A stretch of 64,000 bases of DNA from positions 23,015-87,014 of the forward strand of contig JAULBX010017970.1 of assembly GCA_032358255.1 (NCBI GenBank), read 5' to 3'. The notes beneath the pieces were generated by a model. That model was not told the DNA's origin. It saw only the letters and a list, made by a program, of their open reading frames with translations, and ran no database searches. How positions within the stretch are numbered: position 1 is the stretch's first letter; every line of letters starts with the position of its first letter. This document shows positions 865 through 63,397 of this stretch, piece by piece. The DNA comes from Heterotrichella gracilis (taxonomy: Eukaryota; Sar; Xanthophyceae; Tribonematales; Xanthonemataceae). The position numbers and the translations under genes were made by a program.

Positions 865-3567
865 ATGGAGCAAAACCCTAATAAGGGTTCTGACCAGGCC
901 CAGGCAGCCACAGGCGGTGCCAGCGGCGGCCATGGCCCATCCCATTTTGACAAGGCTGCCAATGTGTGGGATCAGAACCCACTGGTGCATGTGAGTGGCT
1001 GTGGCTAGGGCTATGAGAGTTTGGTTCTGCTTGCTGCCTTGGGATCGCAACAACATAGGCTTGCTTTTTGGGTGGTGTATAGAGGCATTGGGTGAGCGAC
1101 AATGCCCTCGCTGGCACTGCCATGCGTCAGGTAATCCGACCACTGGCAATGAACACCATACCCTTTTTTCAAAATGAAACTATGCATGCTTCCAGGAGCT
1201 AGCCGCGGCTGCAGGGGGCGCAATCAGCGCCGGCGCCACCCTGCGCCCCTCCTCAAATGTGATGGAGATGGGGTGCGGCACCGGGCTGCTGGGCCACCAG
1301 TTTGCGCCCCAGGCGGGGTTTGTGCTGGGGATTGACACCTCCGCGGGGATGGTGGACGCCTTCAACAAAAAGGCGCTCCATGCGGGGCTGGACAACGCCC
1401 ACGCAATCTGCCTGGAGCTCACATCTGCGGCAGATTTGGAGGGGGCGGCGAATACGGCTCGCGTCGCGGGGGGTAAAGTTTTCCCTACCCGCTTTTCCCT
1501 CGTATGCTCCCACATGACCTTCCACCACCTGGGTGACATCCCCTCTGTGGTGAAACTCCTCTCTTCCCTGCTGGAGCCCGGGGGCGAGCTGGTGGTGACA
1601 GATTATCTGAAATCCCCGTGGAGCCACAACTTCCATCCCAAGGAGATGGAGGACAGCGTTGTGCACCACAGCGGCTTCTCGGTGGAGGAGCTGCAGCAGG
1701 CATTCGAGGAGGCTGGCCTCCAGGTAAAGAACTCAAAGCCTTAAACCCTAAACATGGTTGTCAAGCAGTCATTAAATAGCTCCCTTGTGACAATTGATAC
1801 CAGCCAAATTAGCCCATTTTTTGCAAATCCCGGTGTTTCTGTTTCCTGGCAAGTACCCAAATTATTCGCAATGCATGGATGCTTTGTGAAGCTGCATTTG
1901 ACATTCCTCTTGTGCCCCCCCCTGCGCAGTTTCGCCTCCCCGACACACAGGAACCTCTAAACCCCAAACCCCAAACCCCAAACCTCTCAACCCCCTGACG
2001 GCCCCCCTCCCCTTCCAACACACAGGACGTGCACGGCAAGCCCATCCACAGCTTCAACAAGGGGGAAAACACTGACCAGCCCTACACCCTGATCATGGTC
2101 ACGGGGAGGAAACCCAGGGGCACCACCACCGCCAGCCGCCACCTGCACCACCCCACCCCCGCCCGCCAGCCCTTCAATCACGAGGCACCCACATGGGACT
2201 CTCGGCCACTCATGCGCGAGCTGGCTGGCGCAGCTGCTGCTGCCATTGGCTCCCGCTGTGCCCTCCCGCCAGGCGGGGATGTGATGGAGTTTGGGTGCGG
2301 GACGGGGCTGCTGAGCGAGCGCCTGCTTGGGGATGCCAGGTGAGTAAACTTGGATCTTATTGAAAGCCAAAATGGGATTCTCGGCCACCCATGTGGGAGC
2401 TGGCTGGCGCAGCGGCAGCTGCTGACATGGCCATTGGCCAATGGCTGCTGGCATGTCCATTGGCTCCCGCTGTGCCCTCTCGTCAGGCGGGGCTATGCAC
2501 CCCTTGCCACCACCCACCCCCCCTCATCCCTTAAACCCAGCGTCAACCCGTTTTGCAGGTTTGTGGTGGGCATTGACACCTCTGGGCCCATGGTAGAGGC
2601 CTTCAACACCAAGGCGCAAGCCCACGGCTGGACCAACATGCAAGGGGTGTGCATGGATCTGGAGTCACCCCAAGACTACGCAGCCCTGGCCACCACCCAG
2701 CCCTCCCTCCCCACCTCTTTTGACCTCATTGCCTGCCACATGACCTTCCACCACCTGCGGGATGTGGGTGCTGTGGTGGCTACCCTGGCGCAGCTTTTAA
2801 AGCCAGGGGGCTTGCTGGTGGGGACGGATTTGGAGAAGACGGAGGTCTCCCATAGGTGGGTGGTTTTGGACCCTTTTACTGCATTTAGGGTTTGTGTTCA
2901 GGGTATCTCACAAATGGAAATGTGTGCTTAGGGATTATTATTTTCCACGCATTGTGCCGCATTTCCTGCTTCCTGCAGGCGGGGCAGCACGTGTTTGCAG
3001 ACAGTACTTTGCTCTTTGTTGCTGTCGGCAGCGCTTTGTTGCTGTCGACAGCTATACTTATGTGCACTAATGCCAACAGCTAGGTATGAGCCCACACCTA
3101 GGTAGCTGTTGGCAAGTATGACGATTATACTGTTAGAGCAATGTTTTGGTGTGCCACATGCACACACACTCGCCTCGCATGCCTGGTATAGCCCTTAAGG
3201 GAACCCACCCAAGCTCATGACAATAGACCCACCTTGTGAAATTCTCATTACAATAAATCCACTTCGTTGCTTATGATCACCAACACCCCCCCTTGGTCCC
3301 AAACCACGTAGGTTCCACAAGCCCGACAAGCTGGACTGCGTGTTCCACAAGGGAGGCTTTGAGGCAGGCCAGCTGAAGCAAATCTTTGAGGACAATGGCT
3401 TGGAGGTGACTGTGGCAGAGAGGGTGCATGAGTTCCAGAAGCCAGCGATGGATGGTGGGGGTCAAGGGGAGGGGGATGTGGGTTGTGCGCAGCCTACTGG
3501 GGAGGGAATGCAGGGGGAGATGATGACACACGGCCTTCTGATGGTTGCGGGGGTGAAAAAATCGTAG
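865..3567 (+). CDS. Two-domain (tandem) class I SAM-dependent methyltransferase
   Basis: Five exons close in frame: 865-990, 1196-1723, 2026-2339, 2559-2855 and 3312-3567, giving 506 aa. Each half carries a Rossmann-type methyltransferase. Motif I is GCGTG at about residues 68-72 and again at 308-312. Each is followed by a GIDTS acidic loop, a CSHMTFHH/ACHMTFHH motif IV and an LxPGG motif (EPGGELVVTD, KPGGLLVGTD). The N-terminal leaders of both halves match too (FDKAANVWDQNPLV against FNHEAPTWDSRPLM), so the protein arose by internal duplication. The junction lies inside exon 3, with no stop between the halves. The family (methyltransferase type 11/12, UbiE-like) acts on small molecules; the substrate cannot be read from sequence. 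The ATG at 865 (context acATGG) is the first good start in frame. The end of the last exon is duplicated further right. Domain calls are firm; the function is general only. Confidence 0.82.
2371..2495 (+). repeat. Exon echo in methyltransferase intron 3
   Basis: This intronic segment is a degenerate direct copy of coding exon 3 (about 2189-2280). It keeps the stretches ctcggccac, gagctggctggcgcag and attggctcccgctgtgccct in the same order, with an extra internal duplication. It lies downstream of its source on the same strand. Confidence 0.8.
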
Positions 3568-3647
3568 TGTGTATAATCTGTAGATATCCATGGCCATTTG
3601 TGAGGTGGAGGAAAGTGGCCACCTTGCTTCTGTTCTCAACGAGTTTT

Positions 3648-3840
3648 CTGGAGGTGACTGTGCCGGAGAGGGTACACAGTGTCCAAAACTTCTGGAACTG
3701 TGACAGGCGATGGGTGCCCCATGGTGGGACCCTAGCTAGGGTGAGTGGGCAACGATTGGGCAGCATTGTTGAGAGGGATTACACGGGAGGTGGACCACCG
3801 GGTGACACATAACGTTCTGATGGTGGCGGTGGTGAAATTG
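3648..3840 (+). repeat. Degenerate internal repeat of the methyltransferase last exon
   Basis: The block opens with gaggtgactgtgccggagag, close to gaggtgactgtggcagagag at 3405. It ends with a ttctgatggtggcggtggtga-like segment matching the exon end near 3537. Reading frame and stop are lost. The same block recurs at about 6800-7000 in unit B, so this repeat predates the 3.1-kb duplication. Confidence 0.65.
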
Positions 3841-4520
3841 TGGGAGTTGCCTTTGTACGGCCCACTGCGAGCAAAGGTTCCACATGAAGCTGCTGCTTGC
3901 AAGACCAGCTTGAGTAGGGTACAAGGTCTGGCGCATGTTTTAGAGCACACTTCTGGACCGGTGGAATTGCAACCCACCCAGTAGGATCACAGAATGCCAT
4001 GCCAGCTGATTATACCCATGACAGAAGCTTCTAGCTTGAATGTAGCGCATGTTCATTTTTTCACATAGCGTTACATTTATTTTTGGCATTTGCATAGTCT
4101 ATAAATATACCTGCATCCCGCTGTTTAGGCCCATGGCCTGACAATGTGCATGTCAGACTGAGTTGCGTAAAATTATCAGGCACTTTACTGCTGTAATTCG
4201 AATATTCATATGTAAGTCGACATCCATATGGGCCTGCCAAACTGGCATTGAATGCCAATGCCTCTAGATTAGGACCTGACTATTAATACCTGCTTTCCAG
4301 CAATGCTTGTCACCAGCTTGTAACAAAAACTAATTTACTGTCACAACGATCACAGCATGCCTGTCATTGCAGTACGCAACACGTCCACAAGGCGAACGTT
4401 AAAAAGGTCCAGAACTCTTTCCTATAATCATTTTGTAAAAAAGAAAAGGCAGCATGGCAACTACGCATCACCGTATATAGCTAAAATGTCTGGTACAGCT
4501 GCTATGTTAACATTAAAGTA

Positions 4521-5746
4521 TCAGGGATCCTTGGGCAGGCGCTGTAAAGCCTGCCCCACAACTCCATAATTCACACCCAGATCCCAATCCAATCTGTATT
4601 CCCCATGTTCCCCCTTGATTCTGACTCCCTCACCGCATGTCGCTTTGCGAAACCCGCCAATTGGGACAATGCGCAGGTCGGGGTTGACCGGATGCGCCAG
4701 CTGCACGCCATGTCCACTCGCTAGCTCCAGCAGTGTGAGGTTGGGCATGACGGGAAGCACCATCACCTCTGCCAGGCCATGGGCCATGATCTGTTGGAGG
4801 TTGGTGAGGCTGGCCAAGGGCTGGCTCACGTGCTGTACGCCTATCCGTCCGCGCAGGCTGAGTGATGTGAGGTGGACAAGGCCCAGGAGAAGCCCCGCAG
4901 CGTGCACCTGAGATGCGCAGATTGAAGTGATGTCAAGGCTGCGTAACGACGTGGGGAAGCTACCGGGCTGGATGTGGATGGCTCCCCGCACTGTCAGGCT
5001 CTTCAGCTGGGTGAGCTGCCGCAAGGAGGTGTTTGCTGCGCTTCTGTGCGGAACAGATTCATCTTGCACAGTCAAGCTGGTGAGGGCAGGCTGATGGGCC
5101 AGCACTGGGACGTAGTCCACCCCGTTCGCTGCACTGTTGCCACCCTCAGCTTTGGGAGGCAAGGGAGCTCTGGCCACCAGTACTGGCCATCGTCCAAAGT
5201 TTTTTTTGAATCAAGCGCGAGGTGCTCCAGGTTGACCAGTGCTGCCATGGCAGGCATGAAGGGCGCCGCCTGCTCCGGCGTGCAGTACATGCCCAACTGC
5301 AAGTACGTCAGGGAGGTGAGGCGGAAGGTGGCCTCAAGCATCTGCCCAGAGTTGTGCCCATTGTATGCACAGCACCTGGTGATTAAGCGGGGGCCCAGTA
5401 GGAACAGGCTGGTGAGACAAACTGGGTTGAGGTTGTTGAGCACGCGAAGCGCGTCATGTGACTTGATATTGTACATAGTAAGGCACCGGGTAGCTCCCAG
5501 CCTGGAGCACAGCCAATCCAGCTGCGGCTTGTTGATGCATGGCCACCGCATACGCTCCCACGCCGCACTCGGGCCGGCGAGGGCCAGGCGCCAGCGCTTG
5601 CACACCAGCTGCAGCTGCCCTAGGCGCCTGGTCACCAACCCGTCATCCGACACCAGCTTCCCAACGATGCGCTGCAGCAGGTCGTCGGGGAGGGAGTGTA
5701 TGGGGCACCCCGCACATTGCTGAGCTAAAGCAGGGTTGCTGGCCAT
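4521..5746 (-). pseudogene. F-box/leucine-rich protein, copy 1, frameshifted
   Basis: The two overlapping frames (5746 down to about 5125, then about 5130 down to 4521) together match the intact paralogue at 7671-8963 from end to end. The N-terminal part has an F-box-like segment (CPIHSLPDDLLQRIVG) and LQLVCKRWRLAL. The rest is leucine-rich, ending in VGQALQRLPKDP as in copy 2. Aligning the two copies shows one base missing from copy 1 in 5121-5145 (cccgttcgctgcac against cccgttcaaccacac), and this alone breaks the frame. F-box proteins usually recruit substrates to SCF ubiquitin ligases. It is either a recent pseudogene or an assembly error; the long intact frames on both sides of the break favour a very young lesion or an error. 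Confidence 0.72.
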
Positions 5747-6378
5747 TGGTGTTGACTGATGGTTGATCCACGCTCCAGCTGGTAGGTGGGAAGGGTACAA
5801 CTTGTGGTGAGGCTGTTTCACACAGTGAGTCACACACCAGGCTAGGCCAAACTTTCAAGCTAGCAGGAGATCCACACTGTGTCGTTCTGTGCCTGTGTTG
5901 GTTTGGAGCGACCTGTGCCATAGAGCATGCAGACACTGGTTTGTGAAACCGGTTTTCACGAGTGGGCTCCACTGCCAACAGTGGGAGGGAGGGAGGGGGA
6001 AATTCCAAGCAAGTCACAGTAGTGGGTCACGTCAACGCGGCCATACCTCCGCACCCATGAAAGTGTTAACGCACATATGCATGCATGCACATCCCATTGT
6101 TCACCAACCACCCACATCCCGATTGTTGGTTAAGAAACCCACCTATACATGCACTCTGCAGACGAGTTGTAGCGAACTTTCGCCCCCACTTGTCTACTCG
6201 CTGTTTGAGCAGCTCTCAAAGATTTCGGTCGTACACAAAGGATTCACATGCTTGCAAAGCACAACCACGAGATAATAACTCTTCAGGCTGGGCTAAGCGG
6301 ACGAATAACGCAGAGGCAAACAAAGCGCCCAACCAACTTTTCAAGCGCAGGAACCGTTTCCCCTGGCAGACTTTTGCT

Positions 6379-6470: not shown

Positions 6471-6530
6471 GCCAGGTTGCTGCGGGAGGGAAAGTGGCAT
6501 TTTCCCATGGCATTTTCCCATTGGCATTGA

Positions 6531-6714
6531 CTTGGAGGTGATTGTGGCAGAGAGGGTGCACGACTTCCAGAAGCCAGCGATGGATGGTGGGGGTCTAGGG
6601 GAGGGGGATGTAGGTGGTGCGCAGCCTACTGGGGAGGGAATGCCGCCCCGGGGGGAGGTGGACCACCAGGTGACACATGACCTCTTGATGGTGGCGGGGG
6701 TGAAAAGATCATAG
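6531..6714 (+). pseudogene. Orphan 3' exon fragment of the methyltransferase
   Basis: It translates as LEVIVAERVHDFQKPAMDGG and onward, close to the last 60 residues of the gene at 865-3567 (LEVTVAERVHEFQKPAMDGG), including the ending LLMVAGVK-S and the stop. There is no upstream methyltransferase exon here. It was carried along by the segmental duplication and should be non-coding unless read as a 3' exon of something else. Confidence 0.8.
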
Positions 6715-7670
6715 TTGTATAGTATAATCCGTAGATACCCATGGCCGTTTGCAAGGTGGAGGAAAGTGGCCACTTTGCTCCTCTTCTCAACCACTTTTCT
6801 GAAGGTGACTGGTGCTGGAGAGGGTACACAGCTCCAGAACCTGCCAGAACATCTGGAACTGTGACCGGCGATGGGTGCCCCACGGTGGGACCCTAGCTAG
6901 ATAGGGGTGAGTGGGCAACGATTGGGCAGGCTGTTGGGGAGGGATTGCACGGGAGGTGGTGGCATAACCTCCTGATGGTGGCGGTGGTGAAATTGTGGGG
7001 GGTTAACTTTGCACGGCCCATTGGGAGCAAACTTTCCACGTGAAGCTGCTCCAGAAACTGGGACTGGTGGAATTGCACCCTGGGTAGGATCACAGCATGC
7101 TGGTTGTACCCATTGCGTGGACATCTGACATAAGCTTTCAAGCTTGAATGTAGCGCATGTTCAAGTTTTTTACATAGCGCTACATTTGATTAAGCTCTTG
7201 CATAGTCTATCGATATTATACCTATAATACCTGCGTCCCGACCGTTTAGGCCCATGGTCTAACAATGGCCTATAGATAGCTTAGCTAAGCTCAGCTACAC
7301 GTGCATGTCAGTGGCGTCATATTATCAAGCACTTGACTGCTGTTATTCGAATAATCGTATGTATATCGATTATCATATCCATATGGGCCTGCCAATGCCA
7401 ATGCCTAGGCTAGGACCTGACTATTGATACCTGCTTTCCAGCAATGCTTGTCACCAGCTTGCAACAAAAGAACTATTTACTGTCACAGTGGCAGCATGCC
7501 TGCCATTGCAGTACGCATCACTTCCAGAAGGCAAATGTTAGAAATTTTCTTTTAAAGCCCAGAATTATTTCCTAGAATCTTTTTGTACAAACCAAAAGGC
7601 AGCATGGCAACTGCGCATCACCCTATATAGCTAAAATGTCGGGTACAACTACTATGTTAGCAGCAAAGCA

Positions 7671-8963
7671 TCACGGATCCTTGGGCAGGCGCTGCAATGC
7701 CTGCCCCACAACGCCGCCATTTGCCCCCAGATCCCGATCCAGTCTGTACTCCCCATGATCCCCCTTGATTCTTACTCCCTCACCGCCTGTCGCTTTGCGA
7801 AACCCGCCAATTGGGACAATGCGCAGGTTGGGGTTGACCGGGTGCGCCAGCTGCACGCCATGTCCACGCGCTAGCTCCAACAGTGTGAGGCTGGGCATGA
7901 CGGGAAGCACCAACACCTCTGCCAGCCCATGGGCCACGATGTGTTGGAGGTTGGTGAGGCTGGCAAGGAGCTGGCTCACGTGCTGTACGCCTATCTGTCC
8001 GCCCAGGCGGAGTGATGTGAGGTGGATGAGGCCTGGGAGAAGCGCCGCGGCGTGCACCGTCCACGCATTGGAGGCAATCGAGATGTCGAGGCTTTGCAGG
8101 GACGTGGGGAGGCCGCGAGGCTGGATGTTTATTCCCCTCACTGACAGGCTCTTGAGCTGGGTGAGCTGCCGCAGGGAGGTGCCTGCTACACTTGCGCGTG
8201 CAGTGAATGGATAAACCACAGTCAAGCTGGTGAGTGCAGGCTGGTGGGCCACCTTTGGGATGCAATCCACCCCGTTCAACCACACCGTTGCCATCCCAAG
8301 CTTGGGGAGGCAAGGGATCTCTGGCCACCAGTGCTGGCCATCAGGGGAAGGACTGCTGACATAAAGGTGGAGTTCTTCTAAGTTGACCAGTGCTGACATG
8401 GCAGGCATGAAGGGCGCCGCCTGCTCGGGCGTGCAGTACATGCCCAGGCGCAAGTACGTCAGGGAGGTGAGGCGGAAGGTGGCCTCAAGCATCTGCCCTG
8501 CCCTGTGCCCATAGTATGCACAGCCATTGGTGGTATTCCAGGGGCCCCATAGGCACAGGTAGGTGAGACACGCTGGGTTGAGGCTGTTGAGCACGCGCAG
8601 CGTGTCGTTGGTTGGCTCGATACTGTAGGCACTGAGGGACCTGGTGGCTCCCAGCCTGGAGCATAGCCAATCGAGGCGCGGCTGTTTAATACTTAACAGG
8701 ACCATGTTTTCCCAAGCCGCACTCGGACCCACGAGGGCCAGGCGCCAGCGCTTGCACACCAGCTGCAGCTTCGCTTTGCGCTTGGTCACCTTAAGGTCAT
8801 CCTCCATCCAAATGATTGTCCCAGTGATGTGCTGCAGCAGGTGGTCAGGGAGGGAGTGTATGGGACACCCCGCACACTGCTGAGATAGAGGTTGCAGGCC
8901 ACTAATGTTGCTGACCACTGGTGTCGGCTGTGGACTGGCGTCGACTGAGATCCAGGCCCCCAT
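7671..8963 (-). CDS. F-box/leucine-rich protein, intact copy 2
   Basis: A single uninterrupted 430-aa frame with no introns, unlike nearly every other gene here. An F-box-like segment (CPIHSLPDHLLQHITG, about residues 35-50) is followed by LQLVCKRWRLALVGPSAAWE, typical of the end of an F-box. About ten leucine-rich strands follow (LTSLTYLRLGMYC, LPTSLQSLDISI, LTLLELARGHGV), as in FBXL proteins. The family role is substrate recognition for SCF ubiquitin ligases. The ATG at 8963 (MGAWIS) was chosen because the frame has no earlier ATG. The leucine-rich frame is conserved between the two duplicated copies, which argues that the protein was under selection. Substrate unknown. Confidence 0.72.
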   Translation of the reverse strand: MGAWISVDASPQPTPVVSNISGLQPLSQQCAGCPIHSLPDHLLQHITGTIIWMEDDLKVTKRKAKLQLVCKRWRLALVGPSAAWENMVLLSIKQPRLDWLCSRLGATRSLSAYSIEPTNDTLRVLNSLNPACLTYLCLWGPWNTTNGCAYYGHRAGQMLEATFRLTSLTYLRLGMYCTPEQAAPFMPAMSALVNLEELHLYVSSPSPDGQHWWPEIPCLPKLGMATVWLNGVDCIPKVAHQPALTSLTVVYPFTARASVAGTSLRQLTQLKSLSVRGINIQPRGLPTSLQSLDISIASNAWTVHAAALLPGLIHLTSLRLGGQIGVQHVSQLLASLTNLQHIVAHGLAEVLVLPVMPSLTLLELARGHGVQLAHPVNPNLRIVPIGGFRKATGGEGVRIKGDHGEYRLDRDLGANGGVVGQALQRLPKDP

Positions 8964-9605
8964 CTGGTCACACAACAAGCATTAATGGTTGATTGTTTGG
9001 TCAAGCTGTTTCACGCAGCTATTCACACCAGCTTGGGCCAAAACCTCCAAACTGCAGGCTTCCAATCTCATGTTCTGTTTCTAACGCAACCTAAGTAGCT
9101 GGAGCAACCCTATGGACAGCTTGCACACCCATCGTTTTGTGAACCGGGTTCCTAAACTTGCATTCCACTGCCAACAAATGGTTCATTGCAGAAGTATGGT
9201 GGGAAAGAAATTCTAAGCAGTTAAAAAAAGTCACGCCAACGCGGCCACCCATGAAAGTGTTAAGCCACCTGTCCATGCATATGCATGCATGCATATCCCA
9301 CAGTTCACCACACATCCGACTGTTAACTACGATACTCACCTTTAGAAGCACTCTGCAGACTCTTTAAAGCAACCCTTCGCCCCCACTTGTCCTAATCGCT
9401 GTTTAAGCAGCTTTCGCCGCTTTGGGTCGTACACAAGGGCATCACATGGTTGCAAGCACATTCACGAGGTAAATAACTCTTCAGGCTGGGCTTAGCGGAA
9501 GAATAATGCAGAGGCAAACAAAGCGCCCAACCAACTTTTCAAGCGCAGGAACCGTTTCCCCTGGCAGACTTTCTCCTGCCAGGTTGCTGCGCGGGAGGGA
9601 AAGTG

Positions 9606-12781: not shown

Positions 12782-14284
12782 AGGGGAGTGGTCTTTGGTT
12801 TTTTCTTCCAGCAAAATAACTACCATTTTTTGGGCTCTAGCTGGACCGCAAGAGGCTTTGTATACATGTATGAATATAGCGCGGAGGGTTTTTGTACCAC
12901 AGCAGCTGGGGCAATTTTACCTTAATCATAGCAATTTCTTCCCCTCTTGGCCTTGCAGCTACCTGTACAGCGCTGGGGCGATTTCAGCATGATCAATACG
13001 ATTCATCCCACAGCGTTTTCCATGGAACACATTCCGGCAACGGCCACATTCTTATGAAGGAACGCGCCATGGTTTAGCAGGGGCCCTGGGGGGCGTGTCA
13101 GTTACCCTTGTAGGGTGTGCAATTGTCAGCAATAACGGCTTGTTCACACAGGCTTTTGGCAAATGGATCCCAAGCCACCCACGGGTGGGCTCTGGGGACT
13201 GAATCAAATGCATGGCGTTTCTTCAATTTGCGTTTAAGCTGCAGTAGAGTAGGTTGTACCTGGCCCTAAGGCCATTTTCCGCCACAAGAATGACGGCCAA
13301 CAATCGACGTTAGCCAGAATGAGGCACATAGGGGCTTTGCTAGACTACTGAGTAGGATCCGCGTGCGTGTGAGCCCTCAATACAAGTAGGAAGCCCTTTT
13401 TAGTCGTTGGAATATGCTCGCAGTACTCCCAAGCCCGTTGCGTTACGCATGCAGCACTGCAGTCATCTCCAATGCACCGAACCGCCACGATGTACATAGT
13501 CAGTGGGACGCTTGACTGGCAAATTGAACGTTTTTCAGTCCTGACTCATTATGTGGTATACTTTATGTGGTATATCATACACGGCAATTTGTCGCCGTTT
13601 TGCGGGCGTGCAGTCTATCGCGTGCGCTCCATTCAATGCATGCAAGCAGCATTGTTCAGTTCCTGCTGTGCATTGCGTGCACTGGTGGTTATCTATGATG
13701 TCCAGCTGGTTCAAACAATCTATCACAAATTATTCAAGATTGATCTGGACGCATTCTGTCAATGATCCATCGGATTGAGTTACAATATTCCACCAACATT
13801 ATCCCTGGCCATTTGGCCTCTATAATAGCTGGAAAAGAACAATGGTGGATGTAGATATGTACATTGAATGTCATGACAGTGGCATGCCATGCGTTTTATT
13901 GCACTGACATTGATCATCCATGGATGTCATATGCGTAAGGCTTGATCACCTGGCTGTCGGCGATCTACTGGCCCCGACATATGCAATCAAATGAATGTTG
14001 CAATCATTGCTCCGGGAGCGTCATGCCACACTGTGTGCCCTGACAGTGTCTGCCTCTACAGTACTGGTGCAAGCCCATTGGCATTGCAGTGGCATGAACC
14101 GTTCCCAGCCCTGCCCCTCCCTCCTCCACAGCCCAAGCCTATGCCCCGCCCAGGGTGCCTATGGCAGGAATCTGGCGCCCCTTGGCCACTCGGCTGCCAG
14201 CAGCTGGAGCGCGCCAGGCCCTCCACACCTGCCACTGCCATCTCTGACACCCACTCCCCCATGGGTCTGATGATCACACCACCC
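12782..14284. other. Convergent intergenic region
   Basis: It lies between the 3' ends of the unknown gene (+) and the S28 peptidase (-), so it holds two 3' flanks. Short open frames lack splice pairing or domains. I see no RNA gene or mobile element. Confidence 0.5.
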
Positions 14285-17200
14285 CTAGATAGCCCCCCTT
14301 GCCCTGCCTCCCCTCCTGAGCCTCCTCACCGCCCAGGCCCATGTCCCGCCCAGGGTATCTAGGGCTGGCGCCTGGCGCTCCTTGTCTGCACGCCTGGCGG
14401 CGGTGCGCCTTGCCTCCACTGCCTGCTGCTTCTGCAGCACCCACTTGCGCATGTGGCGCCGCTGGAACTCGCGTGCGGCCCTGCGGGGAGGAAGGGGTCG
14501 CGGAGCTTGTTATTGCAGCTACAATATGCATTTCCCCATGATAATTTACCGCAAACCCCAATAGGATCAGGGGTGTATCCTAGCAAGGGAAGGGACCAAC
14601 ACATCCGCACCCTGAAAAATGCACTACAACAAACCCTGGCACATCAAAACCCTCAAATCCCCACCTCTGATACCGCGAAACCTTACCGCACTGATGGAGG
14701 ATCCAGTGGGTGGCAGGACATGAGGTCGGCGTGGTGTGCCCCCTCAGGAGTGACCACAGCCACCACGCCCTACCCCTTACAACCAATCAAGCCATTGGAA
14801 GTTTAGGGTTTACAACATCAGGCTGAAACCCTACCGCACTGATGGAGGGTCCAGTGGGTGGCAGAACACGAGGTCCAGGTGGTACGCACCCTCAGAAACA
14901 ACCACAGCTCAACAACAAAATCTGCACCCTGAAAGTGCACTTCAACACCAACCCTGACACTGCAAAACCCTGAAACCCAGAAACCCTACCGCACTGATGG
15001 TGGGTCAAGCGGATGGCTGAACATAAGGTCCAGGTGGTGCGCCCCCTCGGGAATGACCACCGCCACCACGCTGTCAGACACATCCTCCAGCACACCCCCA
15101 CCGCTCCAGGGGTCCAGCAGGCCGTTGGAGAACACAATGTTGGAGGCGGCCTGTGGTGGGTGGGTGGCTTAGGTGGTGGACGGGTGGGAGGTGGGTTTGT
15201 GTGGGGTGGGGTGGGGGACATGCATGTGCATGTATAGTTGTGGATGGCTGTGGCTGTATTATGGATGCGCGTGGTTGGTTGGATGCATGCACATGCTCTG
15301 TATGATTGACTCTGGCAAGCATTTCAACATTCTTTGTCACTTGTACCCTGTTGGAGGCGGCCTGTGGTGGGTGGGTGGGTGGGGATTGTTGTGGTGGGTG
15401 GGGGTTGTGGTTGTGGTTGTGGGGGCTGGTGAGTGATGGGTAGGTGGGGGGGCGTGTGCAAGCGGAGTGGGGGCTGTGGGTGTTTTACAGTTCTGTGGTG
15501 GGTTGTGAGGCCGCATGGGGTAGGGCATGTGATTGTTGACTCTGAAATAATCATCATCACAACGCGGAACTTGTGCCGATACACTACCACTCCTACCCAG
15601 TGGCACACACTAGAAACCCTAGCAAACCTAGCAACCCTAGCAACCCTAGCAACCTATGCCCCAAAACCCTAGAGACCCCAAACGCACCTGTATCCTCCTG
15701 CCACCCCAGTACTGCGTGGCCCACATGGGGCGCGGAATCACCCCCCACTGATCCTGGCAGGCATCGATAGATCCCTGCTCGTCAAAAGGCTGGTCCCAAA
15801 ACATGTCGTCATCTGCACAAAGCAAAAGCATTCACCCCCATGTTCCATGCGGCAATTTCCTCCCAGCAAAGCAGAAACCACACAAACATGCTGTCGACAG
15901 ACATGTCATACCTGGACTTTTATGGTGGCAAAGTTCCCTCCTGTACCCCGCTACAGATGTTTTACGCAGCAATTGGTGTGTTGGATACAGGTAATCTCAG
16001 TAGGCACACCAGTGATGCATTCACGACTCTTCACAAACCATAAATTCCAACCCGCTCACCACCACCCTTGCCAAAAGGCTGGAACTGGTCTGTACACCAC
16101 TGGAAGCCCCAGACCGCCCCATCCTCCTCAGTCTCTGGGTAAAACTAAATTGCCCCAACACCTCCCAAAGCTTTTCCAATTGAATCTGTGCACTCACAGG
16201 TCTACACCATCCCTAGGATGGGTATTGGTCGGGGCGGTGTGGCTTTCGTGGGAGTATTCACCCTCGCTTCTGTCACGCCATTTGGTGCGCATGTAATCAC
16301 TAATTAGTTGTATTAGTATTATTTTTATTGTTACTGGTTATAAATATTTGGTGTGCAGTGTGTGAAAAGGCCTGGGAGGAATACCTTGACAACACCATCA
16401 GAACCCCGATTCACGTACCTCCCCCCCTAGCAAAGGGCTGGAATTGCTCTGTGCACCACTGGAAGCCCCAGAATGCCCCGTCCTCCTCCGTCTCTGGGTT
16501 CACCCCTTGGAAGGGGTTGTAGCAGGGGAGGGCATTGGAGTAGTTGTAAAACACTCCCGCAGCACCTGGGTTGAGGAGAAAAAATAAATCCCTAAATAAG
16601 TTGAGGGTACATGGGAGTGGCAGTAGAATACCATGGCCACTACAAGGCTCCTAGGCGTCCCCTCTCCATCACACGAGTCCACATCCCCCCACACCCCACG
16701 CGCAGGCACATTCCCCACCCATCCCCTCCTCCAACCTCCCACATGGCTGCGCCAACCTCATCCCACCCCACTCCACCACTTCACCACCCACCACCCACCC
16801 TCCACCCCGCCACCCACCCGCTAGCGCCGCCAGCTGCTCCTCCCCTTGCATTCCCCCCTTGCCCATGTGGCTGCAGGCTGCCCGGACTGGGTAGGCGGGC
16901 AGCTGGCCTTGGCCGTTGAGGATGTAGGAGGAGGGGTAGGGGTAGTTGCCCATGGCCTGGGAAAAAAAATTAAAATTGATGTTGAAGTTAAGGGTGATAA
17001 TAGGAGTAATCATTGGGAGGGAGCAAGGCTGTGGCCGTTGAGGATGTAGGAGGAGGGGTAGGGGTAGTCGCCCATGGCCTGTGATATAGAATAAAACTGG
17101 ATTGATACAGGGATTTGGATGTGTGGTGATTGCCTGTTGCACCCCACGGGGTGCCATATTGAGCTGCTGGAGTGGGCGGTTGCTGGTTGCAACTATCGGA

Positions 17201-39035: not shown

Positions 39036-39078
39036 AAAGCAGGGCTTCTGCATCTCTGATGTGCAGTTGGGGTGAGGA
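39036..39078 (+). repeat. Echo of the expansin 3' end
   Basis: Downstream of the stop, cagggcttctgcatctctga then tgtgcagttggggtga repeats the last codons (caggacttctgcttgacgga then cgtgcagctggcgtga). Confidence 0.8.
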
Positions 39079-52440: not shown

Positions 52441-52465
52441 GGGGTGGGGTGGGGTGGGGTGGGGT
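52441..52465. repeat. (GGGGT)5 microsatellite
   Basis: Five GGGGT units in tandem in probable intron or 5' sequence of the CBM20-SAP gene. Confidence 0.9.
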
Positions 52466-53587: not shown

Positions 53588-55168
53588 ATGGCGGATGGAG
53601 GGCTGTTTACGCAGTATGAGAACGAGTACTGCAACAAGAGCACTGACGTTTCGAGGAAAATCCAAGTGTTGGCAACGTTGAACGGAGGTAGGTTCCCGTA
53701 ATTCAGCACCATGACCCTCGTGGGCGAGCGTCGAGGTGATAGAAATGCGTTTTGTGTGTGTGGGTGAGTGCTAAAAAGGACTATGACAATGAATATGTTG
53801 GCTGACATGGGTGTTTGGTGTTCAGAGCAAAGGCGGACGCATGTCAAGCAACTGGAAGCAGACGTCAAGGAGGCTGAACAAATCGTAAGGGCACTTTGTA
53901 CTTCAGCTCTATATGCTTTTTGCTAAGCTGGGCTGCTGTTATGTCACTCTTTGCAGCTCTATGGCATACATGTGCATGTATTGTGCGATGGTTTGAGCCA
54001 CCCATTGCACCCTCTCTGCTCACCCTCCTGCTGAGCTGGGCTGCTGTATTGTCACTCTGTGCAGCTGCATGGCTTCCATGTCATGGTGCATGTATGGTGC
54101 ATGGTTTGAGCCACCCACTGCATCCTTTCTGCATGGTTTCAGCCTCCTGCCAACACTGCACCTGCTGCCTCCCAGATCCAGCGCATGGACATGGAGGCCC
54201 GCAGCCTGCCCCAAGACAGGTCCAGGCCCCTGTTGCAAAAGGTGAAGGACTACAAGGCAGACCTGAACAAGCTCAAGGAGGACACCCGGGCGGCCTCCTC
54301 AGCCATCCCCGGTGGGGCTGCTGCGCGTGCTGAGCTGGGACTGAGGGACGAGTACTACGACACAAACGCGGGGCAGCGTGAGAAGCTGCTCAAGTCCACC
54401 GACCGGTTGCAGAAGACCTCGGACCGGATACAGCAGGGGCGCCAGCAGCTCATGGAGACGGAGGTAAGAATAAGGATACAATACGAGTGTACCCGTCTCG
54501 CCTCATAGAGACATAGACTGCATTGGGTGGGCACCTGTTTGCTTCCCAAGCCAATCATGCTTGCTTGCATGCATTCCAGCGATACAGGCAGAGTAGCAGC
54601 CACTCTTGCACTTGCGGTGCCAAGCAGTATGGTCCTGGCACTCCTTCTACTTTCTTGTTCATCGTGCATTGTCCTGCTGGAGTCAGCCCATGTGGCCCCG
54701 CGTCCGCTCCTGCATACCACTATAATAGTGCACCACATTTTGGAGCTATTTACAATGAGGGTCTGCAGGCCATCGGTGCCAGCATCCTCCAGAGCCTGCA
54801 AGGCCAGCGGGAGACCATCCTGCGCACCTCCAGCAAGGTCAAGGAGAGCCAGGACAGCCTGAAACAAAGCGCGCAAATCCTGCGCAAGATGTGACGAAAC
54901 CCTAAGGGTTTGGCGCTGCGCTGACCTTGCTGCACCTGCTGTCCAGGAACTGGGGGTGACCATCCTTCAAGACCTGCACCGGCAGCGGGAAACCATCTTG
55001 CACACCAGGGACACCCTGCACGGCGCGGACGACAACATTGCCAAGGCCAGGCGAGTCCTTGCCTCCATGTCCCGGCGAGTGACCACCAACAAGCTGATCA
55101 TGTATGGCATCATCTCGCTGGTGCTGGGCAGCATCGGCCTGATCATCTATTTCAAATTCATCAAGTAG
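53588..55168 (+). CDS. VTI1: VTI1-type Qb-SNARE
   Basis: Four exons, 53588-53687, 53826-53884, 54176-54463 and 54947-55168, encode 222 aa, the usual VTI1 length. The N-terminal three-helix part starts MADGGLFTQYENEYCNKSTD and contains HVKQLEADVKEAEQIIQRMD, as in v-SNARE N-domains of this family. The SNARE motif runs from LLKSTDRLQKTSDRIQQGRQ through ELGVTILQDLHRQRETILHT, with an acidic ADDN at the central layer. A basic SRRVTTNK precedes the C-terminal anchor (LIMYGIISLVLGSIGLIIYF). VTI1 proteins mediate fusion among Golgi, trans-Golgi, endosome and vacuole membranes. Another exon copy at 54769-54894 competes for the same upstream donor. The family call is strong. Confidence 0.9.
53889..54130 (+). 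repeat. Two tandem copies of a 115-nt block in VTI1 intron 2
   Basis: Copies at about 53920-54017 and 54028-54131 share gctgggctgctgt, gtcactct, tgcagct, catggc and catgt, then atggtttgagccacccatt/act and gca. A tandem duplication that is purely intronic. Confidence 0.85.
54769..54894 (+). CDS. Alternative or relic VTI1 SNARE exon without membrane anchor
   Basis: After gtctgcag it reads AIGASILQSLQGQRETILRT, then SSKVKESQDSLKQSAQILRK, then M and stop. It aligns with ELGVTILQDLHRQRETILHT and the rest of the canonical exon at 54947. Phase is compatible with the donor at 54463. If spliced, it gives a complete-looking SNARE motif that ends before the transmembrane anchor. About half of the aligned residues differ, yet there is no internal stop, which favours retained function; this is inference. 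Confidence 0.6.
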   Translation, partial: AIGASILQSLQGQRETILRTSSKVKESQDSLKQSAQILRKM

Positions 55169-56321: not shown

Positions 56322-56347
56322 TGGAGCACCACCATTCCCCGTGAAGG

Positions 56348-58672
56348 ATGGGTGTCAGACAGTAAGTGGTTCCAGCCAGTCTGCACAAACTCCACACTAC
56401 CCCCTTGCATCTTCACGCCCTTTACGCTTATGTCTTGTCACTTACCTGTATAGCTTTACAAGCAGCTTTAGTCAGAGCCCATTGTGCTGCTGCAGGCTGC
56501 TTATGTGGCAGCAGAGCGGCAACATAGCCTACGGGCGCCAGGTCTTTGACTCCATCACGGGCGCCTTTGAGACGCTCAACTGCACGGGGCGCAGGAACTG
56601 GACCACAACCTGCGTGGCGCTCAAACACAATGAGGTACGCTTTGCTGCATACACGGTGGTTGCGGTATGGCTTCTTGCAAGGTGCGTAAAGAAACCGCTA
56701 ACCTGATGGGGTCTGCAGGATGGGCGGGGAAGCAGAGTCACGCAGGTTGCATGGTGTATGTTACAACCTTCCCTGGGGCATATATAGTTAGTTACATGCA
56801 TTCCAGCAACACAGCCAGATTAGAAATCAGTCTTGCACATGCGGCGCCACCCAGCTCTTTTCTGGCACTGTTTGAACCACTTATTGATCCCACGCGAGTT
56901 GAGGTCCTGCTGAAGTATATATATTGTAGTGTTACACGTGGGCAGGGCCCCATCTAGTGGTTGTTGTGCAGGCGACAGCTGCACGGGATGGAGCTGCTTC
57001 CAAGGACCTGTACAGCGTGGCCTTTGGGGACAAGGCAGACATGCTGTACTTTGTTGCAAGGTGAGCAACCCATGGGAAGCTTAGCAACCATTTGAGAAGC
57101 TTAGCGCCCATTTGGCGAGTGCAATTGCCCATATTGGTGACTCCCTGCTTAGTTGTGTTCCTTCACGAGGGGGGGCCTTGCTGCACCCAGTGAGATGCTG
57201 TGTTTTGTTGCCAGGTGAGCAGCCCATGCTGTGCTTTGTCGCCAGGTCAGCAGCCCATGCTGTGTTTTTTTGCAAGATAGGCAACCCACGCCCGTTTGGA
57301 AAACCTTTGTTGCCCATTTGTGACTCCCTGCTTTGTAGTATTCCATCACAACAGTGGGCCTTGCACTGGGCTTCAGGTTTTACGCATTCCCTCAGGACGG
57401 TGTTGACTGCTTGAACCTTTGTTTGCAGGCACGAGAAGGAGGTGATTGAAGCGGATAAGTCGCTGCACCAGGTGCTGGACAGGCTCAACCTGTTCAAGCC
57501 GCGAATAACGCTATATTTCGAGGTGAGCTACCCTTGCGAAGCACTTACTTTTAGTGAATTAATTGCAATTCAAATAAAATTCAAGAGGTGGTGCCCGTGG
57601 CTTGAGAAGGGACCCCTTTCAGCCATTTGCATCACTTGTTGAGGCGAGCTGCTTGAAATTTACATGACGGGAACCCTGCTACAAATGCTAGCACACCACA
57701 TGGAATCCTGGCCCCTGTCCACCGCTGTTATTTCCCCATTCCTGGCGCTCTGCACATGTGGATTGCAATGGGTTGGGACGCGGATGTCCTAGACTAAGGT
57801 TGACTTGGCCACTCGCTGTGCCAGGGCTGGCTATACACCATGGGCGACTTCCATGTGAAGATAGGCAGGGTGGTCCAGAAGCCCAATGGCGAGTACCGGG
57901 GGGTGGTTGTGGAGGCTGAGTACCTGCCGGTGACCGACGTCAAAGCTGCACAGCCTATCCTGGAGGTGCGCTGATAGTTATAACTCCATTCTGCAAGTTG
58001 GGTGCACACAACTACCTCTGCTACAAGCCAATGAAAGATTTTATTGTCCTGACCTGGTTGCAAGCTGTCTAAGAGGCTACATCGGGGCTTTGAGAATGAT
58101 TTCCGTGCAGCACATCTGCCTGCAAGCCACTGCGCAGGAGGTTGTGTGCCTGTTGTTGCGCAGATGCTCAAGTCCTACTATAAATGATGCCCTCCAACAG
58201 GGGCAGTTATTGCACAGCCTGCGCCAAGCAGTCCTGCCCTGGCAATCCCAAACCCTAAACCCTAGAAGCTGCCCACCCTATGATGGACAGACGCTGCTGG
58301 CCTGGCATGGCTCCACTGAGGCTTTGAATTACACGAAAAGACCACCCAACCCTAAACCCTAAATCCTAAACCCTATTTCACAAACGACCACCCAAAACCT
58401 GTTGGCACCCTCGGCAAAGTCTTGCATGCCTATGCAGTCACCAAGCTCAGGGCAGGCAAAAATGCTGGGCAGAAGTGCATTTGACTTTTTGAATATCCTC
58501 GCAGGACTTGGTGAGCATGTTTCAGAGCATGACTTCCACAGCGCAGGGGAAGCTGGTCCCGCTGGAGCTTGCGTTTGACCAGTACGCGCTGCCGCCAAAG
58601 TACTCCCACCTGCATGCCGCGGTGCAGTACATGGCGATGTGTGGCGCCCTTCTGGCACAGAACGTGCGCTGA
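56348..58672 (+). CDS. MED20: Mediator complex subunit 20
   Basis: Six exons, 56348-56361, 56496-56634, 56972-57060, 57429-57522, 57825-57965 and 58505-58672, encode 214 aa, close to the usual MED20 length. The tiny first exon gives MGV-RQ, the same MGV opening as animal MED20. Family landmarks are MLYFVAR, a KSLHQVLDRL region, and YTMGDFHVKIGRVV followed by RGVVVEAEYLP. The C-terminal part is HAAVQYM. MED20 sits in the head module of Mediator and bridges activators to RNA polymerase II in the nucleus. Phases close exactly across all introns. The 14-nt coding first exon and the MGV start are inferred from phase and family knowledge. Confidence 0.88.
57183..57292 (+). repeat. Three tandem echoes of the MED20 exon 3 donor
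   Basis: The source catgctgtactttgttgcaag followed by gtgagcaaccca (57039-57072) recurs as gatgctgtgttttgttgccag then gtgagcagccca, then catgctgtgctttgtcgccag then gtcagcagccca, and catgctgtgtttttttgcaag then ataggcaaccca. The donor decays stepwise with distance: gtgagc, gtcagc, ataggc. Confidence 0.92.
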
Positions 58673-59735
58673 CAGGCTGGTAAGTCGAGCCCAAACTATC
58701 ACATGCACGGGTGTTAGCGTGCAGTTTTGGAGGCACAATTGTGATATTGAGCAAATTAAGCTATTGATTTGCTTCCATGGACCAAAACCTGTATTCTGCT
58801 TGCTGGGGCAAGTGCAGCAATGCGGATTGAAATCCATATGAATAACTAATTTTTGCTGCGTGGCGCGCTGCTGGTCCAGGGCGTGCGTTGACAAGCTGGT
58901 TTCATGGGCGTGACCCACTGGCAGCTAGAATCAACTAGAATTTTTGAGACACAAAGGGCAAATTCAGCTGTGCTTAACTTCCACAGAGTACATTGTACAT
59001 TGTCTGCTTGCTGGGTCGAATGCAGCGGTGAAAATTATTACAGTGAAATTACGTTATGTAAATGCGCTGCTGGCTGAGCCAGCAGCCTCAGGACATGCGC
59101 TGCGGAGCCTGGCTGAGCCTCAGGACATGCGCTGCGGAGGCAGGCATTTATGCCGTTGCAACCAACCTCCTTTCTGCCTTTTGCTTCCAAATCGAGTGTT
59201 CATGTTACAGAAACGTATGTTTTCAAGCTAAAGACCGGCACACCGATTGACGGTGCAGCAAGAGTATGCATGGCAACCTGAAGTGAATAAACTGACGTGC
59301 CCACACCCAATAAACTGACGTGCACACAGCCCACAGCCTTCACATTAGTACAACTAGACACAACGAGCGTAGCAAGACTGAGGTCGTCAATGGTTTTATT
59401 CCATACAGAAAGGGCTGGGCTTACTAGGGCTGCAGAATATGCAGCACTGCTGAATAAATCGTGAAACATTTAGGTTGGCAAAGTGGGGTCAAGGCAAGGC
59501 GAAACGAGGAAGGGGTTGCAGGAGACTGATTACCCCTTGTCGGTGTGCAAAAAAGAAACCTGAGCTGTTACCGCAAGGCGCATCAGTGAAACCAAATGGG
59601 CGAGTAAAATCTACGATCTCCTAAGGCTGAACAATCAAATAGGTGCATAGGTAAAGTTCCCAACTCTGACCCGTTGGGATAGCAAGGAAAGCCCATTTAT
59701 CTAGCTAGATATATGCCAACAACATTTTAACAGCT
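58673..59735. other. Intergenic between MED20 (+) and histidine phosphatase (-), convergent
   Basis: No gene is seen. It has short tandem duplications (ctggctgagcc, caggacatgcgctgcggag at 59070-59140; aataaactgacgtgc-cacac at 59286-59325) and a MED20 3'-end echo near 58855-58895 (tgcgtggcgcgctgctggtc then ggcgtgcgttgac against tgtggcgcccttctggcac then aacgtgcgctgac). Confidence 0.5.
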
Positions 59736-60778: not shown

Positions 60779-61241
60779 GATCCCTCACACAGCCAGATCC
60801 AGTGGGTTTCGTCAACCTGGGTGGTGGCGCAGTGGTGGGTTTGCGTTTTGTGGAGCAGGATATATTCGAGTTCAAACAAGGCCAACGGAGTTTAGTCAGT
60901 GGGTGAGTATCCAAGTTGGTATCCACATAGTGGCTGCTCCTCAAGGAAGAGAAACAAGGACCGCCCAACAGACCGTATCGACGTCAAGGATACCTGTGAC
61001 TCATTGAACAACAGTTGCGCCCTTGGCCTGGAGAGATACTGGACTTTTTGTTCAGAATGCATGCATGCATCTTTGCTGGGCAGTGATGGGGACGCCTTTT
61101 TCTTGTTGAGACAGCGGCTCGGGCTACTGCTGGAGTGCGAAGTGCGGTGTCTGGCACACCACGCACCTTTTCCGCTGCTTGAGGCATAGCACTGTGAAGG
61201 CCTCGCGGGTACTGCCCTTTTTGTGACGAAAAGGGAAGGCA
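60779..61241. promoter_or_regulatory. Divergent promoter region, phosphatase (-) and SAYSvFN gene (+)
   Basis: A compact region of about 460 nt between two start codons; no specific element is assigned. Confidence 0.45.
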
Positions 61242-63397
61242 ATGCATGTCTACATCCAAACAGTTGTTGGGAAGAAATACACCCTGGAGCTACATGAGCT
61301 CACACTGTCGGTAAGCTACAGCCTTAGCCACTTTGCGTCCTCCACACTCGCTGTTTTCAAACCCACGGGCTCAACATGCATTACACACAGTCATATTGGG
61401 TGCCCTCCAAACTCAGACTTCTGAGCCAGAGCCTCTCTCACAACGCCCTAGGGGTACCTAGGACAAGCCGGGTAATGAAGGTATAGTTAACCACTTGCAG
61501 GTGACATCGTTGCGGGCACTGGTTGCGCGTGAAACCAAGCTGCCAGCGACCCGGCTGAAGCTTGTGCACCAGGGCAGTACCTTACCAGCAGACGACCAAG
61601 CGCAAGTCCACCTGAGCCCCGGAGGTGATACACCCTGCACTTGCTGCCTCCCGCCAGTGCTTCACATGTTGACTGCCAGTGCAGCAGCTGGGCGCTGACA
61701 TATACCTTTGCACTGAGCAACAAAATGCATACACCAGCTGGCCAACTCAGCCACGATCCCGCGCCACCTGATCACTACACCCAACCAAAACCACCACCAC
61801 TGCCAGTGGCTTCCACCTCCCCTCTCACACCCCACCCATCACCCACCACCACCCACCACCCTCCCCAGACACCCTCCTGGCGGTGGTGGCCCCCCAGCCC
61901 CCACCCGAGGAGGTCCACTTGGCTCACGAGGCACAGCAGGCACGGCAGCGGGGGTATCATAGTGAAGAGGAGGAGGAGGAGCCAAACCCCCTGCACTTCA
62001 GGTACTGAGCTGCAACTCGCAGCATGCCATATGTGGGCTGTTGTAAGGGTTCTATTTCTCTCATTTGGACTTTGGGACTTATGTTGCATGCCTCTCGGGG
62101 ACGGCTTCGCCCCGGAGCGGCCCATGAGTTTATGTCTTTTCCCTGTTGCTCTATCATCATGTTCTGCCACCTTCAGGATGTAAGTCCCGAAAACTTTGCC
62201 CGGAAACAGTTTTTTAATATTAAAATATTCGAGGGGGGTCTCGCAAATGTGCAACATTTTCGGGATGTTGACGGAGCAGAATTAGGTCCCGTGACCAAAC
62301 GCACCCATAACTTCAGCTTGTCCGACCGCAACACCCAAGTCGATATATAGCGACCGACTCTCCCGCGCGCGCACTGCTACCTCTGCCCCGAGGTTTATCC
62401 CCCTTGTGAAAACAAACGGGGAGGACCCCAGGCGGGCCATTAAAATACAATATTTTAATGTGCACGAAGAGGCAGTAGTAGGGGAAAAAGGATGTAGAGT
62501 AAACATGCATCATTTTAATAACAAAATTTCCTAGTTTACTATGTATTATTCATGCAATATTCAACCAATTGACTCTGTCCCTTTCAGGCTTCGACCCAAC
62601 GCCACCCGCATGGAGCGCCGCCTAGCGCACCACCTCCAGCACACCCTCCACCTGCCCCAGGTGGTGCTGGTGGTGCTGTTTGGGGTGCGGCCAAGGGTGT
62701 GGCTGTGGCTGGCGGTGTGGCTGGTGGGCGCGCATGGAGCCACACGATTGGAGGTGGGTGGCGAGATACAATTAGACAAACCAAGATATTGCATGATGAT
62801 AATCATGATGATTACATGATACTGTTAGAATTGCATGCGGAATGCATCCAGACAGTCATGCCCCAGGTGGGATGCACCCACAGCTGTCACATGTGCCCAG
62901 GTACAGTTCCCGGTTACAGTGAAGATGTGATGCAAGGCGTTTCTGCATTGCTATGAGCAGGTGTGGATCCATCCCATCTGGGACACGCTAACTAAATGTA
63001 CAAATAAATACGCCTGGAATCTTCTGGAAAAGGCCTCTGCACAGGTACCACTGTAAGCCTCTCTAGCAATAATTCATTCACAGCAAGTGCATCCACACCT
63101 GGTGGCATAGTTGCACCTACTAGCTCCATGTGTGTGCCGCAGGTTTTCTAGAATGGTGCATTCACAGCGGGTGCATCCCCACCTCTGTCACAGTAACTGC
63201 AGTTACCAGCTCCATGCGTGCCGCAGGTTGGCAGCGTGTACGTGCTGTTGAGCATGGTGGTGCTCATTTTCATTAACCTGGGCACTCGAAAGCCTGGCGA
63301 GGCCAGCGCCTACTCCATATTCAACAACTTCCAGGCGCTGCCAGGGCAGCTGACAGCGGATGAGCTGGACCGGCAGCTGCGGCAGGGGAACATGTGA
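61242..63397 (+). CDS. Ubiquitin-like domain plus SAYSvFN domain membrane protein (SAYSD1-like)
   Basis: Five exons, 61242-61310, 61501-61624, 61869-62001, 62588-62753 and 63227-63397, encode 220 aa. The N-terminal 70 residues are ubiquitin-like (MHVYIQTVVGKKYTLEL, VTSLRALVARETKLPATRLK, LVHQGSTLPADD). A Glu-rich linker follows (HSEEEEEEPNPLHF). Hydrophobic segments are WLWLAVWLVGAHG and VGSVYVLLSMVVLIFINLG. The signature LGTRKPGEASAYSIFN (SAYSIFN at about 191-197) defines the SAYSvFN domain. Animal SAYSD1 is an ER membrane protein linked to the translocon and UFM1-dependent clearance of stalled secretory chains; here the role is inferred. The ubiquitin-like N-terminus is an addition relative to human SAYSD1 as I recall it. 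Phases close exactly. Confidence 0.85.
62160..62570. other. AT-rich, palindrome-bearing block in the SAYSvFN gene intron 3
   Basis: Base composition and word use differ from other introns. It has the perfect palindrome ttttaatattaaaa (about 62211-62224) and the inverted repeat cattaaaataca-atattttaatg (about 62438-62460). No echo or telomere-like word is seen. It may be an inserted element; no ends were defined. Confidence 0.45.
63072..63152 (+). repeat. Upstream exon echo/tandem repeat at SAYSvFN exon 5 acceptor
   Basis: The string attcacagcaagtgcatccac then agctccatgtgtgtgccgcaggtt repeats as attcacagcgggtgcatccc then agctccatgcgtgccgcaggtt before the real exon at 63227. Acceptor copied; the coding part decays at once. 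Confidence 0.85.

Follow-up and report, generated by a model that had tools for sequence, protein, structure and literature searches.

Why should the introns of unrelated genes hold pieces of the exons that flank them? The question is raised by a 64,000-nucleotide stretch of contig JAULBX010017970.1 (positions 23,015 to 87,014 of the forward strand; GenBank assembly GCA_032358255.1, listed under Heterotrichella gracilis), herein referred to as the window, for which a preliminary description made from the letters alone had reported introns built from decaying copies of neighboring exon ends. Such copies (herein referred to as echoes) were found in roughly one-quarter to one-third of the introns that we examined, and their tendency to stop close to splice sites hints at a route of intron growth that is little known. 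The presence of same-strand copies of exon edges in introns is confirmed as both real and replicated.

The assembly comprises 68.5 Mb in 903 contigs, and the window lies within one contig. Because its SBNO (strawberry notch) protein is nearest to that of Myrmecia bisecta (67%) and then to that of Trebouxia (65%), the source of the window DNA is, judging by this protein, a trebouxiophyte green alga. Genes were modeled with a purpose-built predictor followed by curation by eye, yielding 14 gene models and 64 introns; the models designated Fbox1, U7, MED20, and UBL retain 4, 4, 1, and 1 internal stops, respectively, in their best frame. For comparison we sampled 29 stretches elsewhere in the assembly, where all exon boundaries are predictions.

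Same-Strand Copies of Exon Edges in Introns

When exon ends in the window were compared with the introns adjoining them (score of at least 36), direct matches were found at 23 of 128 ends and inverted matches at 0/128, against 4/2560 when the exons were drawn from other genes and 0/1280 when the introns were shuffled. Self-alignment against shuffled introns had been proposed as a check in the preliminary description, and the direct, same-gene excess bears out its account of same-strand, gene-specific, partial copies in graded decay, which occur across unrelated genes and loci and most of which extend to the splice signal. A self-comparison of the entire window agrees: at 40 bits or more it contains 52 direct and 3 inverted pairs, and among pairs spaced 0–500 bp there are 38 direct and 0 inverted. 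Once low-complexity matches had been removed, as they were also from the near-pair listing and the exon-only test in other loci, 33 copies remained, comprising 18 of an upstream exon, 11 of a downstream exon, and 4 beyond the last modeled exon of a gene. The 29 intron copies occupy 20 of the 64 introns and, by the exon-end test, fall in six genes; pairs detected by BLAST contribute weaker copies in MED20 and in a CBM20/SAP gene, which brings the total to eight genes. The initial estimate, which put some 35 copies in eight genes or more, therefore holds if weak copies are admitted. Many of the copies retain the splice dinucleotide, with GT present in 11/13 copies of donor ends and AG in 4/7 copies of acceptor ends. 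As for the earlier proposal that the process lengthens introns, we find only a trend, with a median length of 384 bp for echo-bearing and 306 bp for echo-free introns (p = 0.18).

The pattern recurs outside the window. A test restricted to exon sequence, applied to 296 predicted boundaries in 20 other loci, gave direct matches at 49/296 and inverted matches at 0/296, with 0/1480 for exons of other loci and 0/296 for shuffled sequence. Because 13 of these 20 loci have at least one copy, the pattern is widespread in the genome. Of the near pairs in the 29 stretches, 108 are direct and 20 inverted, and the listed pairs in other loci span 67 to 99% identity in a graded manner. Near pairs are absent from four of the 29 stretches, those without predicted exons (L001, L010, L018, and L019; 28–42% GC, zero echoes); their base composition suggests that these are probably not algal, representing DNA of other organisms or organelles in the assembly. 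Locus L015 carries a 99% identical duplication on either side of a 100-base gap of Ns (positions 4893–5419), which is probably an assembly artefact. Both L015 and L017 were excluded from the exon-only, block-end, inner-edge, and 45-bp telomere-word proximity tests and from the other-loci part of the masked telomere-word test; L015 was retained in the near-pair listing, in the list of pairs at 88% identity or more, and in the codon-position counts for other loci, from which nine loci were excluded. One intron, at L025:3467–3800, has a mosaic-like appearance: telomere-like sequence comes first, next the upstream exon is echoed over 92 bp, and last there is an echo of the downstream exon.

Fate of the Copies

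Several of the copies had been called as exons by the predictor; we considered whether they are real exons. For SBNO this is ruled out by alignment, since the protein conceptually spliced without its echoes shows zero insertions at echo-bearing junctions relative to five homologues (the junction at intron 8 sits in a variable region of that alignment); more generally it is ruled out by frameshifts, with 39 of 42 alignment gaps in window copies not being multiples of three. The SBNO copy remains intron because the outer splice sites go on serving the protein. We likewise rejected the AGGT model of intron gain, in which a new intron forms between two copies using one splice site of each: the SBNO protein skips the copies, the other genes being judged from their models.

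If one member of each pair is a free copy and the other a constrained exon, mismatches at third codon positions should exceed those at the other positions by a factor of up to about 2, and the non-exon rate should be about twice that at position 2. Other loci match this expectation. In 64 pairs, mismatches at codon positions 1, 2, and 3 number 147/1333, 119/1336, and 266/1325 (0.110, 0.089, and 0.201), a ratio of third to other positions of 2.01 (interval 1.72–2.40), and the non-exon part of the same alignments has 435/2623 mismatches (0.166). The corresponding counts in the window are 71/659, 53/662, and 159/652, a ratio of 2.60 (interval 2.04–3.31). Coding constraint on the copies themselves, which the window ratio had led us to suspect, is unseen in the other loci, where 3 of 58 events with at least six mismatches have an individually significant third-position excess against 2.9 expected. 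The copies thus drift nearly neutrally as intron sequence.

Origin of the Copies

The spacer between template and copy is mostly not duplicated. Duplication of a whole period predicts that the stretch from exon to copy recurs beyond the copy, and we simulated this for the 20 testable window events, with divergence set separately for each pair and indels introduced at the rate observed. Significant spacer duplication was found in 9 of the 20 events, against 19.2 expected under tandem duplication and decay; 13 spacers lie below the 5% bound of the simulated tandem events and 7 fit, and a less strict local test was positive in 10/20. Averaged over the 20 events, the intron match approaches the shuffled level about 15 bp in (0.64 vs. 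0.59 at 15–30 bp). Among pairs of at least 88% identity, 1 of 33 is adjacent (three of the 33 come from the doubtful L015). The youngest clean case, L025:3378–3469 and 3512–3603, is 99% identical over 92 bp and has a 42-bp spacer without counterpart; a clean tandem copy lies at 36284–36431 in the window. The original formulation, tandem duplication across splice junctions, holds only in part, given these counts and two copies that follow stop codons.

The ends of the copied blocks are not randomly placed. For the 104 pairs that have an exon in one copy, the copy-facing block end falls in the interval from 8 bp on the exon side of the boundary to 40 bp beyond it in 72, against 21 (standard deviation 3.9) for random placement; among pairs at 88% identity or more the figure is 20/24 against 4.9 expected, and when each boundary is counted once it is 66/87, or 20/23 for the young pairs. 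In 100/104 pairs the opposite end of the block remains within the exon concerned. Duplication of whole exons was also considered and rejected, the far end coinciding with the opposite exon end in 1/104 pairs. Blocks measure from a few dozen to about 150 bp, and the median spacing is 70.5 bp; taking the window and other loci together, the spacing from template to copy seems two-peaked, at about 80–120 and 180–220 bp, with few values above 260 bp. Templates contain exon in 33 of 39 window pairs (BLAST rows of at least 40 bits, minus one 3.1-kb pair), against a simulated share of 0.27–0.28. Because a survivorship simulation, in which copying is random and copies landing in exons are removed, gives a near-boundary share of 0.28–0.29, we reject the removal of exon copies alone as the cause.

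Telomere-like words are strongly concentrated in the introns. Counted on both strands of the assembly, the word AAACCCTAAACCCT is present 7154 times and the backward word 4 times; for AAACCCT in either orientation, the window counts are 78 for intron (22.6 kb), 4 for exon (19.6 kb), and 16 for intergenic DNA (21.9 kb). Echo-bearing introns contain 5.84 such words per kb against 2.26 (p = 0.004). A word lies within 45 bp of 9/13 echoed donors versus 16/51 others, and of 4/10 echoed acceptors versus 3/54, in the window; in other loci, with exon-only detection, the figures are 22/49 echoed boundaries versus 48/247 (locus-stratified p = 0.0012). The presence of a word anywhere in the intron gives 33/49 versus 134/247 in the other loci (p = 0.11), and when words inside the aligned blocks were masked and the reach set to 60 bp there was no difference (6/28 vs. 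24/103; 16/57 vs. 62/288). Telomere words as junction filler received no clear support, the inner edge of the copy (19/95) not being clearly richer than the spacer average (0.16). The link between telomere words and echoed boundaries is suggestive only. Short telomere words within genes are also a feature of plants, as telo boxes; those of Arabidopsis and rice are described as peaking in 5′ untranslated regions and lying slightly below the genome mean in introns, whereas in this alga the peak is in introns, and for the plant boxes it has been suggested that telomerase acts at free ends linked to transcription (PMC3022908). Insertions of telomere repeats at breaks are reported with a duplicated flank in 6/130 rodent and 4/25 primate cases (PMC2246262).

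We hypothesize that the echoes arise when a repair-type process copies exon edges locally, and on the same strand, into adjacent introns, where near-neutral decay follows, an account to which we would give about an even chance. Introns would be repeatedly seeded with short same-strand copies of the adjacent exon's edge; DNA would serve as the template, which would be switched locally in repair or replication (a repair-mediated duplication), and the break or switch would lie near the splice signal, in many cases next to telomere-like words. Selection would purge copies landing in exons, and those landing in introns would persist; with the outer splice sites staying in use, as in SBNO, the copy would become intron and drift. 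A more ambitious version, which we put forward tentatively and think rather less than probable, is that sense-oriented exon-edge copying cut at the splice signal operates genome-wide in this algal lineage and is tied to end processing of the telomere type at breaks close to splice sites, such that introns would grow as patchworks in which exon ends in decay alternate with telomere words.

Several observations weigh against repair-type copying of exon edges. Known repair duplications come in both orientations, whereas these are almost solely direct. The third-position ratio in the window exceeds the simple neutral limit, and nearly half of the tested window events do have significantly duplicated spacers, and 7 of 20 are consistent with plain tandem duplication. 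Copies are also found after stop codons (31098–31156 and, weakly, 58857–58900), such that the coding edge may matter beyond the splice site. Finally, quick decay of noncoding sequence could trim the block ends.

The strongest rival supposes plain, small, whole-period tandem duplications scattered at random in the genome, of which those spanning an exon–intron or coding–UTR edge are tolerated and stay visible longest, one copy being conserved and the intron part decaying twice as fast. The clean tandem copy at 36284–36431, the spacers that fit the simulation or are significantly similar, the copies that cross stop codons, and the neutral codon-position rates of other loci all suit this explanation; nevertheless, we judge it unlikely, given that divergence in most spacers greatly exceeds what the simulation permits, that young pairs are so rarely adjacent, that exon-containing templates are far commoner than simulated, and that block ends cluster at boundaries. 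If the tandem duplications were instead old, and gene conversion had held the exon part similar while the intron part diverged by indels, identity would date the last conversion. At least four events (S28 intron 9, SBNO introns 8 and 12, and Suf intron 5) have spacer similarity that is significant yet too weak for the identity of their exon parts, as this would predict. However, many blocks are 30–60 bp, which is short for gene conversion, and conversion should pull the third-position ratio toward 1, whereas we measured 2.0–2.6; we regard this explanation as improbable.

An RNA template would account for orientation and for the block ends: if pieces of pre-mRNA, still unspliced and terminating where splice sites are bound, underwent reverse transcription and were then inserted at breaks in their own intron, the result would be sense copies only (0/424 inverted across both exon-end tests), with blocks that stop a few bp beyond donors and ahead of acceptors. 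Yet spliced copies were not noticed, the far end of the block almost always falling inside the same exon, and copies following stop codons would require a separate reason, which makes this origin very unlikely. We consider it most improbable that the copies derive from a diverged homologue, through hybrid ancestry and unequal homeologous exchange, and thus had coding-like divergence and unlike introns from the outset. A related alga is reported to have allodiploid hybrids (PMC12636532), and the third-position excess in the window and the dissimilarity of introns beyond about 15 bp would fit; however, no second haplotype was found for two tested segments, the other loci lack the excess, and even the 99% pair has dissimilar introns. 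That the pattern as a whole is an assembly artefact, as the L015 pair flanking its gap might suggest, is scarcely credible given pair identities graded from 67 to 99% and copies in 13/20 other loci.

How do the echoes compare with described sources of intron sequence? Introners are families common to many genes and a genome-wide source of intron sequence. The algal copies resemble them in supplying introns throughout the genome, but each matches its own gene, and an introner or transposon family was rejected because matches to other genes are near zero (4/2560 in the window and 0/1480 in other loci) and two tested spacers are single copy, as the preliminary description had anticipated in distinguishing the copies from introner elements. 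The search for spacer copy number covered the 68.5-Mb assembly and skips very common words, and "single copy" refers to those two spacers only. A nonlocal match in the sampled DNA was found for 9 of 82 spacers (the matches listed being 20–42 bp long), and the L025 stretch has a second match, of 85%, on another contig, which covers chiefly the telomere-like spacer.

Among described processes, repair-mediated duplication in vertebrates comes closest, and for it the published account gives copies of median 147 bp drawn from proximal DNA within a few kb, with donors that include splice sites and partial exons (PMC2671141). As in the alga, the copy lies near its template and is separated from it by other sequence; in the alga, however, exon edges dominate the donors and exon–intron copies are direct only, whereas the same account records partial exon/intron donors in 4/824 cases and one inverted exon copy (PMC2671141). 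Tandem duplication across an exon–intron boundary has been described as a route of intron gain in which the splice signals are copied and new introns created (PMC4974935, which cites Gao and Lynch 2009; Rogers 1989; Hellsten 2011). The duplicated boundary is a shared feature, but the algal copies enter existing introns and, in SBNO, the outer sites are still used.

A further candidate process involves the CST/Pol alpha-primase complex, which is otherwise known from telomeres. Fill-in by Pol alpha-primase guided by CST is reported to make small tandem duplications at breaks (PMC8355091); small direct duplications are the common element and the telomere words would suit such an activity, but it predicts adjacent copies and the algal ones are mostly spaced. 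Our literature search, in which subscription journals were thinly covered, turned up no paper that we recognized as describing the exon-edge copy pattern. The old question of where intron sequence originates and why introns lengthen has often been answered with mobile elements; in this alga exon edges provide a visible source, the template of each copy lying nearby and the copy's own decay serving as a clock. Decoy splice sites inside introns also provide a natural test of how splicing disregards them, and the stop at the boundary, if mechanistic, would link DNA repair to gene structure.

Individual Copies and Other Features of the Window

The gene families represented in the window are methyltransferase, Peptidase_S28, SBNO, DPBB/expansin-like, Suf, CBM20/SAP, v-SNARE, MED20, and SAYSvFN, together with genes that we take to be F-box/LRR and phosphoglycerate-mutase-like. 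The S28 peptidase gene, on the minus strand, holds two copies (14687–14768 and 14835–14908) of the donor end of exon 14990–15150, with a partly duplicated spacer, and a copy at 16062–16140 of the donor end 16422–16499, whose 278-bp spacer is not duplicated. The copy at 17032–17078 matches the acceptor end 16910–16956 at 46 of 47 bp, without significant spacer duplication. The echo near 18503 that had been called barely visible was located at 18521–18582, as a faint copy (81%) of 18327–18385; two others lie at 19035–19075 (of 18818–18858) and, beyond the last modeled exon, at 14131–14263 (of 14331–14453).

All remaining copies are on the plus strand. The donor-end copies of SBNO are at 22007–22145 in intron 3 (of 21817–21952, the start of the intron being duplicated too), at 24671–24771 and 24832–24886 in intron 8 (both of 24498–24599), at 26849–26964 in intron 12 (of 26641–26756, with a faint third copy at 27036–27087), and at 29038–29116 in intron 16 (of 28868–28946, spacer not duplicated). 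The intron 12 copy, first put at about 93% identity, measures 90.5% over 116 bp and 92% in its exon part. The modeled donor of intron 8 is GC (GCAAGT, 24600–24605), and the echoes behind it have GT donors (24774–24779 and 24887–24892). Acceptor ends are copied in intron 9 (25558–25608, of 25661–25711), in intron 10 (26031–26111 and, more weakly, 25819–25885, of 26196–26277), and in intron 17 (29624–29680, of 29738–29795); intron 17 also contains, at 29444–29508, a copy of 29368–29432 spanning the donor site, which was detected by BLAST only, its exon part being below the length needed for the exon-only test. The copy across the SBNO stop codon, at 31098–31156, derives from 31018–31078.

In the DPBB/expansin-like gene, intron 3 has two donor-end copies of exon 36180–36324, at 36359–36399 (a true tandem with a period of 75) and 36472–36509, and a copy at 36652–36684 that is identical to the acceptor end 36832–36864 at 32 of 33 bp, its spacer not duplicated. 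Intron 5 copies both a donor end (37508–37557, of 37394–37444) and an acceptor end (37666–37703, of 37853–37894), and intron 6 a donor end (38224–38270, of 38079–38123). By eye, positions 39043–39071, called an exon by the predictor, appear to echo the end of this gene, including the stop codon, directly behind it. The Suf-family gene has donor-end copies in intron 3 (45146–45217, of 45029–45101) and intron 5 (46135–46181, of 46045–46089) and an acceptor-end copy in intron 6 (46711–46781, of 46901–46971), where the spacer is not duplicated. Intron 2 of the v-SNARE gene contains a copy at 54961–55006 of 54783–54828 that stops short of the splice site. In MED20, intron 2 holds two weak copies within 57192–57259 of the donor end 57038–57074 (BLAST 42–46 bits), and the copy beyond the stop codon (58857–58900) is a weak match to 58638–58681 (BLAST 40 bits).

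In the methyltransferase gene, intron 3 contains two copies (2372–2422 and 2444–2492) of the upstream exon 2193–2278 that stop short of the splice site, followed at 2493–2525 by a copy of the interior of the downstream exon (2676–2709); two more lie beyond the stop codon, at 3649–3688 (of 3401–3440) and 3803–3837 (of 3524–3558). Larger repeats occur here as well. A domain is repeated within this one gene (1257–1604 and 2279–2830), giving three direct matches about 1 kb apart, and a 3.1-kb tandem duplication (3393–6374 and 6525–9572; 75%) carries the tail of the methyltransferase gene and a minus-strand F-box/LRR-like gene.

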